A DNA stretch of 27,261 bases from a virus. Location: IMG/VR virus record IMGVR_UViG_3300021093_002288, positions 1-27,261 of that record; one strand, 5' to 3'. Numbering within the stretch: the first letter of the stretch is position 1; every line of letters begins with the position of its first letter. Both the position numbers and the translations under genes were made by a program. Below are positions 12,979 through 27,261 of the stretch, in pieces. The notes under the pieces are model-generated. The model did not search any database. It was not told the origin of the DNA and was given only the letters and a program-made list of their open reading frames with translations.

Positions 12979-13821
12979 ATGAATATGATTCAAGCGATAG
13001 GTGCTCCGTTTCCGGTTCAGTATTCTTCTTGCTCAAATAAACTACCAGAACTGTTCAGATGGACAGATGATGATAACCCAGTAAAGGTTTATATTGACCG
13101 TGGTATTGCTCTTGGTTTACAAGAACCAAAGAAAGAAGGAGAAAAGAAAATTGCATGGGTTTGTGAATCCAGAGCAATTTTTCATTTAAGTTATCCAAGA
13201 GAAGCATGGATACATCAATTAGAACAACTTTCAAATACATTTGATTTAATTATTACATCTGAAAGAGAGATGTGTAAATTTGACAATATTGTTTTTTCAT
13301 ATGCAGGTAGTAATTTACCGTGGTTACCGTATTTGAATGCAGTTCCAGAGAAGACAAAAAATATATCTCTTATTGCTTCTCCAAAGAAAATGACATTTGG
13401 TCACGCTATTAGACATTTGATAGCAGAAAAATATTCAAATCAAATGGATATTTTTGGAGGTGCAAATGGCACTAAAAGATTTGGGTTTGGATCCTCTCCG
13501 TGGCCAGATAAATCTGAAGCCATTGTTCCTTATAGATTTTCTTTAGCAATAGAAAACGATTCGTATAAGACATATTATACGGAAAAGATAACAGACTGTT
13601 TTGCTTCTGGTACTATACCAGTTTATTGGGGAACTCCAGACATAGATGAGCATTTCAATAAAGATGGTATAATTAATTTGACAAGTGACTTTGATTTTAG
13701 TAAACTAACTCCAGAATTGTACGAAAGTAAACTTGATGCAGTCAAAGACAATATGGAAAGAGTTAAGACACTTAAAAATGCAGATGATTGTGTATATAAG
13801 ATAATAGAGAGTAGGTTATGA
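12979..13821 (+). CDS. GT10-like alpha-1,3-fucosyltransferase
   Basis: The 280-residue protein has the GT10 signature block at about 185-225: YRFSLAIENDS, then YYTEKITDCFASGTIPVYWG, followed by a phenylalanine-asparagine and GIINL. This block binds the GDP-sugar donor. The N-terminal half would be the acceptor side. ATG 12979 is chosen because AGGAAGG (12964-12970) is well spaced from it; a GTG at 12970 overlaps the regA stop. No signal or membrane anchor is visible, so it should be cytoplasmic. It opens the glycan island and is paralogous to the N-terminal domain of the protein at 14477. Confidence 0.85.
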   Translation: MNMIQAIGAPFPVQYSSCSNKLPELFRWTDDDNPVKVYIDRGIALGLQEPKKEGEKKIAWVCESRAIFHLSYPREAWIHQLEQLSNTFDLIITSEREMCKFDNIVFSYAGSNLPWLPYLNAVPEKTKNISLIASPKKMTFGHAIRHLIAEKYSNQMDIFGGANGTKRFGFGSSPWPDKSEAIVPYRFSLAIENDSYKTYYTEKITDCFASGTIPVYWGTPDIDEHFNKDGIINLTSDFDFSKLTPELYESKLDAVKDNMERVKTLKNADDCVYKIIESRL

Positions 13822-14480
13822 AAACTGAAATTGTTTCTTTTTATTCTGATATCGACAATAGAACATATTATAGTGATCATGCAAAACGACTTAGACAGAA
13901 TTGCATTGAACTAAATATACCGTATGACATTAGAGAACTTCCATCTACCGGAAGTTATAGGTTAAATTGTTTATCAAAACCAAAATTTATTTTGGCAATG
14001 ATGGAAGAAAAGAAAAAACCATTTGTTTGGATGGATGTTGATTCAACCATTCACAATGAACTTAAAGTTTTTGATGATAAAGAAAATCTTTGTGATTTAA
14101 TTTTTGCATATCAATCTATTGTTCCACATAAAGATGTATTAAAACCAAAGGCATCTCCGATTTATTTGAATCAAACTCCAATTGTCTATGAGTTTGTTAA
14201 ATTTTGGATAGATAAGTGTGAAGAAAACTTAAAAAATAATGGTCCTAAAGTGTTTGATCATGAAATTTTATTGGTGGAAGTTTTACCTGCATTTATTCAA
14301 AAATTAAGAGTTGGAGTCTTGACTATGAATTACGCAATATGGCCAGGAACAGATGCACCCAATGGTATGAAACCATACATAACTATGGGTATAGCAGATG
14401 GTGATTCAAAGGAAAAGTCTTTAAAAGAAATGGGACTTTCTGAAAGTAATATTAAATTTAACATGGTAGGAAATATATGA
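13818..14480 (+). CDS. Nucleotide-diphospho-sugar transferase-like glycosyltransferase
   Basis: The 220-residue protein has a GT-A-like layout: an N-terminal strand-rich part and FVWMDVDSTI (about 73-82), where D-x-D would coordinate the metal and sugar nucleotide. FDHEILLVEV (about 145-154) resembles the conserved Asp-x-x region of PF03407-type transferases. The layout resembles the protein at 22620 (Y-x(2,3)-A near the start, then KK-h-h-W-h-D). ATGA overlaps link it to both neighbours. The donor and acceptor are unknown. Confidence 0.65.
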   Translation: MKTEIVSFYSDIDNRTYYSDHAKRLRQNCIELNIPYDIRELPSTGSYRLNCLSKPKFILAMMEEKKKPFVWMDVDSTIHNELKVFDDKENLCDLIFAYQSIVPHKDVLKPKASPIYLNQTPIVYEFVKFWIDKCEENLKNNGPKVFDHEILLVEVLPAFIQKLRVGVLTMNYAIWPGTDAPNGMKPYITMGIADGDSKEKSLKEMGLSESNIKFNMVGNI

Positions 14481-16009
14481 TGCATGATGTTATTGTTGTA
14501 AATGGTGATTACTTTGGATTTGATTTGGAACAAACTAGTTTTACTTTAGAGGTTCAATTTTCTAGAATGGGAGAAAGTAATAGTCCAAATAGAGACTTTG
14601 TTAGTGGTATTCCTGATTTAGTAAAATTTAAAGATAATAAAGCATTTAAAGTATTCATGTGTTCAAATGAACCTTCAAGTTCTCTTAATAGAGAACACAA
14701 TTCTGTTATTACTAAAAATTATTTTAATTATGATTTAATACTAACAACAGAAGAAGAAGTATTATCTAGTACACCAAACTCAGTATTGTTTCCATATGGG
14801 GGAACATGGTTAAATAAAAAATCTGGAGCACATAATGATTCTCTAGGTGTTTTTGATGAGACATCCATTCAAAGATTAGACAAAAAATTTGCTGTTTCGT
14901 TTTTAACTACTAGTCATTTAGGAAAGTCTGGATATAATCTAAGACAAAAAATATGGAATAGTAGAGATGATGTTAAGATACCAAGTGTATTCTATTCTAG
15001 TACACGATATCCTACAGATACTCTTTCTTGTTTGGGTGGAGGAATTTTTTCTACTACCAAACATGATGGATTCGTACCAAATGATGATAAACTTAGTTTA
15101 TTTGATTGTCAGTTTAGTATAGCAGTAGAAAGTAGTAGAGAAAATTCTTATTTTACTGAAAAATTAATAGACTGTTTATTAACAAAAACAGTTCCAGTAT
15201 ATTGGGGTTGTCCGAATATTGAAGAATTTTTTGATAAAAGAGGTATTTTGCACTTTAAAAATTATGAAGAATATCTTAAAATTGTAAATTCTATAGATGA
15301 AACTACATATCAAAAAATGAAACCATATGTTGAAGTAAATTATAAAAAAGCAAAAGAATATGGTAGATGTTTGTTAAAACGAATTTGTGAATTATCAGAA
15401 AAAGTTTACAATGAAAGAACATCTAAAAAAGATATATTATTGACTATTGGAATTCTAACAGTTCCAGAAAGAGAAGATCTTCTGAGAAGATTATTACAAC
15501 GTCTATCAGAAAGCATGTTGATTAGTTTTAATCATAGAGTAGAAATTATTGTTAATAGTGATAATAAAATAAAAACAGTTGGTCAAAAAAGAAATGAAGT
15601 TTTAGATTCAGCAAAAGGAAAATATGTTTGCTTCATTGATGATGATGATATGGTAACATATGATTATCTTTCTAAAATTTTGTATGCTTTAGATACAGAG
15701 CAATATGATGCAGTTTCTTTTTCTGGTCAGTATTATCATTCAGGAAAATCAATAATGCAATTTAACCATGCAAATATAAATGGTGGTCATTTTAAGAAAG
15801 ATGGAGTACAATTTAGACCTTTGAATCATCTTAATCCAGTTTTAACCGAATATGCTAGACAGATTAGATTTCCTGAAAAAAATTATGCAGAGGATTCGGA
15901 TTATTGTGATAAACTATATGAATCTAAATTGATTAAAAATGAATACGGAATAAAATCTGTTATTTACCTGTATTTGTTTGATCCAACAATAACTTTAACT
16001 CAAAGATAA
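14477..16009 (+). CDS. Bifunctional glycosyltransferase: GT10-like plus GT2-like domains
   Basis: This 510-residue protein joins two transferases. Residues about 1-300 are GT10-like, with FSIAVESSRENSYFTEKLID and TVPVYWGCPNIEEFFDKRGI at about 211-251. Residues about 318-510 are a GT-A/GT2-like domain starting DILLTIGILTVPERED, with GQKRNEVLDSAKGKYVCFI leading into a run of four Asp (about 388-391) that contains the metal-binding D-x-D. A later E-D-S-D near 477 may supply the catalytic base. Such a fusion could add two successive sugars. The start overlaps the previous stop as ATGA. The frame is intact and the DNA very AT-rich. Confidence 0.78.
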   Translation: MMHDVIVVNGDYFGFDLEQTSFTLEVQFSRMGESNSPNRDFVSGIPDLVKFKDNKAFKVFMCSNEPSSSLNREHNSVITKNYFNYDLILTTEEEVLSSTPNSVLFPYGGTWLNKKSGAHNDSLGVFDETSIQRLDKKFAVSFLTTSHLGKSGYNLRQKIWNSRDDVKIPSVFYSSTRYPTDTLSCLGGGIFSTTKHDGFVPNDDKLSLFDCQFSIAVESSRENSYFTEKLIDCLLTKTVPVYWGCPNIEEFFDKRGILHFKNYEEYLKIVNSIDETTYQKMKPYVEVNYKKAKEYGRCLLKRICELSEKVYNERTSKKDILLTIGILTVPEREDLLRRLLQRLSESMLISFNHRVEIIVNSDNKIKTVGQKRNEVLDSAKGKYVCFIDDDDMVTYDYLSKILYALDTEQYDAVSFSGQYYHSGKSIMQFNHANINGGHFKKDGVQFRPLNHLNPVLTEYARQIRFPEKNYAEDSDYCDKLYESKLIKNEYGIKSVIYLYLFDPTITLTQR

Positions 16010-16011
16010 AA

Positions 16012-26705: not shown

Positions 26706-26706
26706 G

Positions 26707-26714
26707 GATAAATA
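26707..26714 (+). promoter_or_regulatory. Possible late promoter octamer GATAAATA
   Basis: GATAAATA fits NATAAATA but ends only five bases before the ATG at 26720, so a transcript from it would start at or past the start codon. The overlapping AAGGA (26704-26708) may simply be a ribosome-binding site. The promoter call is weak. Confidence 0.3.
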
Positions 26715-26719
26715 CTAGT

Positions 26720-27261
26720 ATGCCTATTAACTTTCCTGGTACTCCTTCCAACGGTCAAACCTATGATTACGGTGGGATACATTATATTTTCAATGGAACT
26801 GGTTGGATTAACAAAAGTATATTTGGTGTCACTGGTAGTACATACATCAATATCGAAAGTTATAATGCTACCGGTCCTGCAATAATTGCAATCGATTTTG
26901 CAGATTTGTCTGCTGCAATTAGTGGAATAGGTCCTACAGGTGCTACTGGTGCTACTGGAGCCACTGGTGCTACTGGAGTCACTGGTGCTACTGGTCCCGT
27001 TGGTGCAACAGGAGCCACTGGTCCTACAGGTGCTACTGGTCCTACAGGTTCTACTGGTGCTACTGGTGCTACAGGAGCCACTGGTGCTACAGGAGCCACT
27101 GGTGCTACTGGATCAACAGGTGCTACTGGATCAACAGGTGCTACTGGAGATACTGGTGCTACTGGAGCTACTGGTGCTACTGGATCAACAGGTGCTACTG
27201 GAGATACTGGTGCTACAGGAGCCACTGGTGCTACTGGATCGACAGGTGCTACTGGTGCTAC
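26720..27261 (+). CDS. Collagen-like tail-fibre protein, 5' part (runs off window)
   Basis: At least 180 residues are visible with no stop before the window end. The N-terminus [19 protein letters not shown], followed by a FNGTGW segment (about 25-30), is a small module common at the start of phage fibre proteins. After a linker containing [13 protein letters not shown], Gly-X-Thr triplets begin at about residue 71 ([10 protein letters not shown]) and continue to the edge, almost all Gly-Ala-Thr, Gly-Ser-Thr, Gly-Asp-Thr or Gly-Pro-Thr. AAGGA 11 bases upstream is the likely ribosome site. It is a second fibre gene in tandem with the one at 25719; the tip domain is outside the window. Confidence 0.85.
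26930..27261 (+). repeat. Collagen-like Gly-X-Thr coding repeat, second tract (continues)
   Basis: About 36 uninterrupted Gly-X-Thr type triplets, with an 18-base unit GGTGCTACTGGAGCCACT and close variants repeated in tandem. It is longer and more uniform at DNA level than the tract at 25993-26208 and extends past the window edge. Confidence 0.9.

Follow-up and report, generated by a model that had tools for sequence, protein, structure and literature searches.

Background

In Clostridioides difficile the glycosyltransferase SgtA, which joins a GT-A domain to a C-terminal TPR and is encoded immediately upstream of bclA3, modifies Thr in the GPT collagen region of a bacterial spore protein, not a virion protein, with beta-O-GlcNAc, UDP-GlcNAc having been shown to be the donor (PMC7157674). 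GmaR of Listeria, an enzyme with GT2, TPR and an additional antirepressor domain, transfers GlcNAc onto a filament protein, flagellin (PMC9638930), and the glycocin glycosyltransferases SunS and ThuS modify bacteriocin peptides through an S-linkage. For mycobacteriophages, phage-encoded glycosyltransferases and glycans on virion proteins have been described, which, as far as the account cited in PMC12619734 goes, are located on capsid and tail tube C-termini and not on collagen-like fibres (Freeman et al. 2023). The pelagimyophages, T4-like phages of aquatic environments, harbour between VrlC and gp14 a hypervariable host recognition cluster that encodes glycosyltransferases and tail fibres and contains collagen repeats; in the interpretation of its authors it modifies the host O-chain (PMC7029224).

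Collagen-like fibres built of Gly-X-Thr (GXT) triplets are common in phage metagenomes, and our literature search found no report asking whether such fibres are bare protein. Here we analyse a window of 27,261 nucleotides from an uncultured T4-related phage of fresh water, in which a gene island lies between regA and two collagen-like fibre genes, and for which glycosylation of the phage's own fibres had been predicted. We consider it probable that one enzyme of this locus, referred to as GT2-TPR, is a phage protein O-glycosyltransferase for these fibres, and the products of the island may extend the glycan.

Organization of the locus

The T4-like replication module gp47-gp46-gp45-gp44-gp62-regA is followed on a single strand by 17 ORFs, one of them a remnant, and then by the two fibre genes (Table 1). 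Evidence of a sugar- or methyl-transfer family was obtained for nine of the 17, namely the GT10 enzyme, the GT10 + GT2 fusion, both FkbM-type methyltransferases (the first just below the Pfam cut-off), the WavE-type and HAD proteins, the nucleotidyltransferase, the GDP-mannose 3,5-epimerase homologue and GT2-TPR, while the remaining eight gave no informative match.

Table 1. Position and supporting matches of the features of the locus
Feature	Coordinates	Strand	Evidence and remarks
regA	12572..12973	+	PF01818 E 3e-41; conserved left border of island
Island of 17 ORFs	12970..25272	+	first start GTG at 12970, ATG at 12979
GT10 fucosyltransferase-type enzyme	12979..13821	+	first island gene after regA; PF00852 E 3e-9; PDB 2nzw (alpha1,3-fucosyltransferase) E 8e-11
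GT10 + GT2 fusion glycosyltransferase	14477..16009	+	PF00852 and PF00535, each above cut-off
FkbM-type methyltransferase 1	17128..17709	+	PF05050 21.7 bits vs cut-off 22.7
WavE-type glycosyltransferase	17711..18499	+	PF07507 E 7e-9, above cut-off
HAD phosphatase / phosphomutase family	18480..19103	+	PF13419 E 4e-31
Sugar nucleotidyltransferase	19100..19816	+	PDB 4evw E 2e-22; NCBIfam sugar-1-phosphate nucleotidylyltransferases below cut-off
GDP-mannose 3,5-epimerase homologue	21610..22623	+	PDB 2c59 E 7e-96 over residues 3-320; next family E 5e-29
FkbM-type methyltransferase 2	23323..23925	+	PF05050 E 1e-10, above cut-off
Remnant ORF	23921..24088	+	55 codons, without start codon
TATAAATA, T4-type late promoter upstream of GT2-TPR	23992..23999	+	exact match
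GT2-TPR glycosyltransferase, proposed initiating enzyme on fibre protein	24082..25272	+	start ATG 24082 or 24091; PF00535 above cut-off
CATAAATA, late-promoter-like site before small gene and fibres	25264..25271	+	overlaps GT2-TPR stop region, 24 nt before small gene
Small conserved fibre-adjacent protein, 142 aa	25288..25716	+	phrog_1084; weak match to phrog_3304 (L-shaped tail fibre assembly)
Collagen-like tail fibre 1, proposed acceptor	25719..26705	+	Pfam collagen PF01391, tail fibre PHROGs
GATAAATA, late-promoter-like site 13 nt before fibre 2	26707..26714	+	weak, one mismatch
Collagen-like tail fibre 2, proposed main acceptor	26720..27261	+	Pfam collagen E 7e-18, tail fibre PHROGs; cut by contig end

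The layout given in the original prediction, with an island on one strand after regA and then the fibres, was thus recovered, with corrections to gene count, rods and promoter. The seventeen genes are present as ORFs, but only nine of them deserve the name glycan-type. Rods made almost entirely of Gly-X-Thr are a trait of fibre 2 (38 GXT triplets in the 180 aa seen before the contig end, longest pure run 28), but fibre 1 has a mixed rod (23 triplets in 328 aa, longest run 9). The island had also been said to end exactly at the fibre promoter; CATAAATA does overlap the stop region of GT2-TPR, but the small gene, whose structure model is of low confidence, intervenes between GT2-TPR and the fibres, and GT2-TPR has a promoter of its own.

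Among relatives, a T4-type late promoter motif precedes GT2-TPR in 20 of 62 clusters, versus 27 of 523 control starts (p=1.8e-9), and 75 of 106 loci have a [N]ATAAATA site positioned -40 to +60 relative to the end of GT2-TPR. Because GT2-TPR in the window has its own perfect TATAAATA, it reads as a member of the late fibre unit and not as the end of the island, and it looks to be expressed late with the fibres.

The order regA-island-GT2-TPR is repeated in six relatives (L006, L011, L014, L017, L035 and L036), and the GT10 gene after regA is present in 6/6 relatives whose locus spans both regA and the island. A megablast search of phage records with the island gave no match, and island content proved highly swappable between relatives, as it is in O-antigen loci. 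This last trait, the known occurrence of WavE and GT10 in LPS pathways and the published reading of the glycosyltransferases in the pelagimyophage host recognition cluster (PMC7029224) would fit an island that, GT2-TPR included, alters host surface glycans (O-chain or capsule) during infection to block co-infection, its adjacency to the fibres reflecting a shared host-recognition cluster. We consider such a role unlikely, given that no flippase, lipid-carrier transferase or clear membrane segment was found in the 17 ORFs of this contig, that GT2-TPR is nearest to protein-modifying enzymes and seems to be expressed late with the fibres, and that its occurrence follows that of GXT rods even among phages unrelated to one another and in bacteria, as described below.

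Architecture and relatives of GT2-TPR

GT2-TPR has a GT-A (GT2) domain with a DxD motif whose D93 and D95 are invariant across 18 sequences, followed by residues 179-376, all-helical and TPR-like in an AlphaFold2 model (pLDDT 90); the TPR evidence further comprises a weak TPR_16 match in Pfam and a designed TPR protein among the PDB profile matches. When the family profile (A1) was compared with the PDB, the best three matches were GmaR (6e-20), SunS (6e-18) and ThuS (1e-16), chondroitin synthase being fourth (1e-8). Foldseek comparison of the model with the PDB placed SunS and ThuS structures in the top six positions, over ~390 alignment columns and nearly the whole chain (E down to 4e-16, ~13-18% identity), followed by RmlT (4e-8); the alignment with SunS spans the protein, but its full-length rmsd is large (14 A; for 7msp, 297 columns align at 3.4 A). 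The nearest solved relatives by profile and fold, GmaR, SunS and ThuS, all act on peptides or proteins.

The likeness to SgtA-BclA3 extends to the GT-A and C-terminal TPR architecture, the gene order before a collagen-like gene and, as proposed here, the GXT-type Thr acceptor and the initiating role, and the published forward primer of SgtA encodes MITISLCMI where GT2-TPR has KISLCMI, a comparison of nine primer-derived residues (PMC7157674). By analogy, we regard SgtA as a close experimental precedent in its acceptor as well as in architecture and gene order. GT2-TPR differs in having a gene island upstream, SgtA not being known to work with any elongation pathway.

Phage T4 glucosylates hydroxymethylcytosine in its DNA. 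The window likewise comes from a T4-like phage, and DNA is often the target of phage glycosyltransferases (general knowledge; PMC12619734), but an island that glycosylates phage DNA appears highly improbable: PF00303 (thymidylate synthase / hydroxymethylase), the only route searched, was found in 0/11 relatives of 98-157 kb with control genomes positive, and the listed profile and fold matches of GT2-TPR include no known DNA glucosyltransferase.

Association of GT2-TPR with GXT rods in phages and bacteria

When relatives were clustered below 85% identity (n=42), a collagen-like rod was found at most 5 kb downstream on the same strand in 31 and on the opposite strand in none, and an upstream rod occurred in 2/34 relatives; the downstream placement is beyond chance. 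Fifty virus contigs picked only for at least 10 GXT triplets contained 20 with a match to the GT2-TPR profile, versus one of 50 neutral contigs, which were somewhat shorter (median 28 vs 40 kb; p=2.4e-6), and this sole neutral contig carries GXT rods 371 bp downstream of the match. Full-length matches were present in 18/50 GXT contigs versus 3/50 contigs with Thr-poor collagen (p=4e-4); a GT4 control gave 7/50 versus 2/50 (p=0.16). GT2-TPR and the rod nearest to it shared a strand in 17/17 GXT contigs (combined placement p=0.0025), although this agreement counts for little, as the genes of a phage module have a common orientation.

A tblastn search of phage records with GT2-TPR returned 11, none of them T4-like; in the best annotated match, the cultured Tunturiibacter phage Tunturi_5, the GT2-TPR gene is gp35, and a tail fibre with GXT triplets (gp29) is encoded 3.7 kb from it on the opposite strand. 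Rods were absent from two of four GT2-TPR loci of large phages (L057, L058).

Within the T4-like clusters whose sequence continues downstream for 8 kb or more (n=33), GXT rods occurred within 8 kb in 18, only Thr-poor collagen in eight and no rod in seven. The expectation that phages with GT2-TPR always have adjoining GXT fibres therefore does not hold, GXT is not required and the pairing is not exclusive. Likewise, on whether the island occurs as often without GXT fibres as with them, the T4-like clade is near even, and a preference for GXT emerges only across lineages. Since the T4-like enzymes form one clade in the tree, common descent accounts for part of the gene order that they share. 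No rods were seen in regA-anchored contigs without GT2-TPR, though many of these would end before the fibres, and they were left out of the comparisons.

In bacteria, the SgtA-type position beside a GXT collagen-like gene, found in the window and in the 18 T4-like clusters above, recurs in 30/80 relatives of GT2-TPR when rods up to 8 kb away are counted (27 of them no more than 3 kb away), the other 50 having no GXT rod inside 8 kb. On the tree, the GXT-neighbour trait needs ~19 changes, 14 of them forced by supported branches. All GXT places of one 7.8 Mb genome (G199), among the matches listed, fall inside its GT2-TPR locus (L705), and in another (G212) the GXT rods are far from the GT2-TPR locus (L706). 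One bacterial MAG encodes GT2-TPR fused with GT10 and GT25, with a GXT rod 271 bp downstream. The association with GXT is strong across phages and recurs in bacteria.

GT2-TPR might instead act on some other protein of the virion or the host, with the fibre a mere neighbour and GXT rods just a common fibre type. The 15/33 T4-like clusters lacking a GXT rod within 8 kb would suit this explanation, as would the variety of acceptors among relatives (flagellin for GmaR, peptides for SunS and ThuS). It is nonetheless decidedly improbable in view of the scarcity of full-length members in Thr-poor collagen contigs, the recurrence of the association with bacterial GXT proteins, which are not phage fibres, and the action of SgtA on exactly this repeat type (PMC7157674).

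Proposed pathway of fibre glycosylation

The choice of GT2-TPR as the candidate enzyme contacting the fibre, made in the original prediction, is supported by profile, fold, the SgtA precedent, the GXT association and the late promoter. From its relatives and genomic association we infer that it glycosylates proteins or peptides, and modification of the fibre protein itself is quite likely. GT2-TPR would be produced late in infection, together with the proteins of the tail fibres. The TPR-like domain would grip a fibre chain that is unfolded or in the course of assembly, and the GT-A domain would place the first sugar, through a predicted O-linkage, on Thr (perhaps Ser) of the Gly-X-Thr repeats.

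Soluble glycosyltransferases and methyltransferases of the island would then extend and cap the glycan, fed by phage-made nucleotide sugars. Chances that the island extends the fibre glycan begun by GT2-TPR seem evenly balanced. The whole island may build one glycan, and this glycan may be methylated. The GDP-mannose 3,5-epimerase homologue, similar over its full length to the plant enzyme (2c59), would yield GDP-L-galactose or GDP-L-gulose and could supply the extension, but L-galactose within the glycan is doubtful.

Conclusions

The recurrence of this pairing in many unrelated phages and in bacteria suggests that these viruses glycosylate their own fibres. We tentatively propose, with confidence slightly short of even, that GT2-TPR and a GXT protein constitute a portable two-part O-glycosylation module, assembled many times in phages and bacteria, which in aquatic T4-like phages anchors a swappable island building a strain-specific fibre glycan, so that "host-LPS" islands would be partly virion glycan loci. 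If a dedicated enzyme glycosylates GXT fibres, current views of the surface chemistry of many phage virions, of their contact with receptors and of their recognition by immune systems would have to be revised, and the glycosyltransferase islands of aquatic T4-like phages would gain a testable role besides changing the host surface.

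Gene content of the window

The window spans the entire 27,261-bp record of an uncultured virus, of metagenomic origin. Its left half is T4-like (gp47, gp46, RNase H, gp45, gp44, gp62 and regA by Pfam), gp44 being most similar (~57% identity) to sequences from cyanophages and marine T4-like phages. A run of 17 ORFs, a 55-codon remnant included, is followed first by a short conserved gene and then by a pair of collagen-like fibre genes, the second of which is nearly pure Gly-X-Thr (GXT) up to the contig end that cuts it off. Sugar- or methyl-transfer families were recognised for nine of the 17, while family searches gave no informative match for the remaining eight, so that the seventeen glycan-type genes of the original prediction are borne out only for the former.

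Features of the window (rows without coordinates belong to the run of 17 ORFs)
Feature	Position	Strand	Remark
SET-domain protein gene	1938-2843		between gp47 and gp46
Perfect TATAAATA	12544-12551		just upstream of regA
Run of 17 ORFs	12970-25272	+
GT10 fucosyltransferase-type enzyme		+	family evidence
GT10+GT2 fusion	14477-16009	+	family evidence; single protein, Pfam match of the GT10 part lacks the N-terminal region
Two FkbM-type methyltransferases		+	family evidence; one slightly below Pfam cut-off
WavE		+	family evidence
HAD enzyme		+	family evidence
Nucleotidyltransferase		+	family evidence
GDP-mannose 3,5-epimerase		+	family evidence
GT2-TPR	24082-25272	+	family evidence
Fibre 1	25719-26705
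Fibre 2	26720 to contig end

In relatives whose loci reach both genes, the glycan island lies between regA and GT2-TPR; its content varies from phage to phage and the GT10 gene after regA is retained. Fusions found elsewhere (GT2-TPR, GT10 and GT25 in a single ORF of a bacterial MAG, locus L672, followed after 271 bp by a GXT rod; methyltransferase, GT2-TPR and GT9 in two large phages, L504:8480-11197 and L505:7905-10757) join parts of the island to GT2-TPR, and thereby indirectly support a single putative pathway. Homology of the window epimerase to GDP-mannose 3,5-epimerase is convincing, so GDP-L-galactose would be a reasonable donor.

Probable late expression of GT2-TPR

A perfect copy of the T4-type late promoter sequence, TATAAATA, lies 90 bp before GT2-TPR in the window, and exact copies were found at most ~165 nt upstream of this gene in 20 of 62 clusters of relatives versus 27 of 523 control ORF starts in the islands (p=1.8e-9). 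A late promoter is expected of a gene working with virion proteins, and GT2-TPR is therefore assigned to the fibres. The island proper stops before GT2-TPR, which corrects the original prediction.

Association with collagen-like rods

In the T4-like clade, where 113 GT2-TPR loci were examined (clusters formed below 85% identity), a same-strand collagen-like rod occurred within 5 kb downstream in 31 of 42 clusters, none being on the opposite strand, and an upstream rod in 2 of 34. Among the 33 clusters whose sequence extends 8 kb downstream, a GXT rod was present in only 18, the sole rod was Thr-poor and charged (~56 triplets) in eight, and no rod was found in seven; the proposal that GXT fibres always accompany GT2-TPR thus fails. 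The Thr-poor charged rod, 0.2-2 kb downstream of GT2-TPR in many relatives (L015, L016, L024, L025, L032, L038 and others), has a near-constant length (~53-60 triplets), which suggests a ruler; in some cases a distinct GXT rod lies beyond it.

Across lineages, GT2-TPR is linked to GXT rods more clearly than inside this clade. The GT2-TPR profile matched 20 of 50 virus contigs chosen solely for at least 10 consecutive GXT triplets and one of 50 neutral contigs picked by an arbitrary 14-mer (Fisher p=2.4e-6), in sets selected by pattern rather than random sampling and differing in length distribution; the lone neutral match has GXT rods 371 bp downstream of GT2-TPR. Contigs with Thr-poor collagen rods matched in 8 of 50 cases, full-length matches numbering 3/50 versus 18/50 in the GXT set (p=4e-4). 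A GT4 family control gave 7 versus 2 contigs (p=0.16), and the enrichment is therefore not one of glycosyltransferases generally. In all 17 fully read GXT contigs GT2-TPR and the nearest rod are encoded on one strand, and they lie closer together than random placement would predict (combined p=0.0025).

A GXT rod lies within 8 kb in 30 of the 80 bacterial relatives taken from GTDB genomes, and in 27 of these 30 it is no more than 3 kb away. The trait was gained or lost many times: on a quickly built tree that includes some long branches it needs ~19 changes, of which supported branches force no fewer than 14. All 34 listed GXT matches of a 7.8-Mb Streptomyces genome (G199) fall inside its GT2-TPR locus (L705), as does every match of G200 (within L707) and, among the matches listed, all of those of G202 (70 matches; L712); G212 is a counter-example, with GXT rods, among the matches listed, far from its locus (L706). 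Separately, L498:10210-12312, on a contig rich in GXT rods, fuses a GT2 domain with a 2OG-Fe(II) oxygenase domain, possibly combining collagen hydroxylation and glycosylation.

Fold and precedent of GT2-TPR

The GT2 domain has an invariant DxD, and the C-terminal half is all-helical in a confident structure model (mean pLDDT 90). Against PDB, a profile built from 18 members matched GmaR (6e-20), SunS (6e-18) and ThuS (1e-16), all with protein or peptide acceptors, and then chondroitin synthase (1e-8). The six best fold matches of the model are SunS and ThuS, aligned over nearly the whole chain and ahead of teichoic acid enzymes by some eight orders of magnitude. A large rmsd over the full length fits a common two-domain plan with differing domain angles. 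The TPR domain of GmaR was proposed by its authors to recognise flagellin (PMC9638930), and FlmG, of another fold class, likewise combines TPR with a flagellin glycosyltransferase (PMC7591256).

A close precedent is SgtA of C. difficile, a GT-A domain plus TPR region encoded directly upstream of bclA3, which adds beta-O-linked GlcNAc to Thr residues of the BclA3 collagen repeats, Ser also being accepted (PMC7157674). Architecture, gene order and acceptor type are alike in the phage pair, and the nine SgtA residues MITISLCMI from a published primer, to which the comparison is limited, match the KISLCMI region of GT2-TPR. GT2-TPR is a candidate SgtA-type enzyme, activity being the defining criterion, and the proposal that it would work like SgtA, glycosylating the collagen-like fibres, is well supported.
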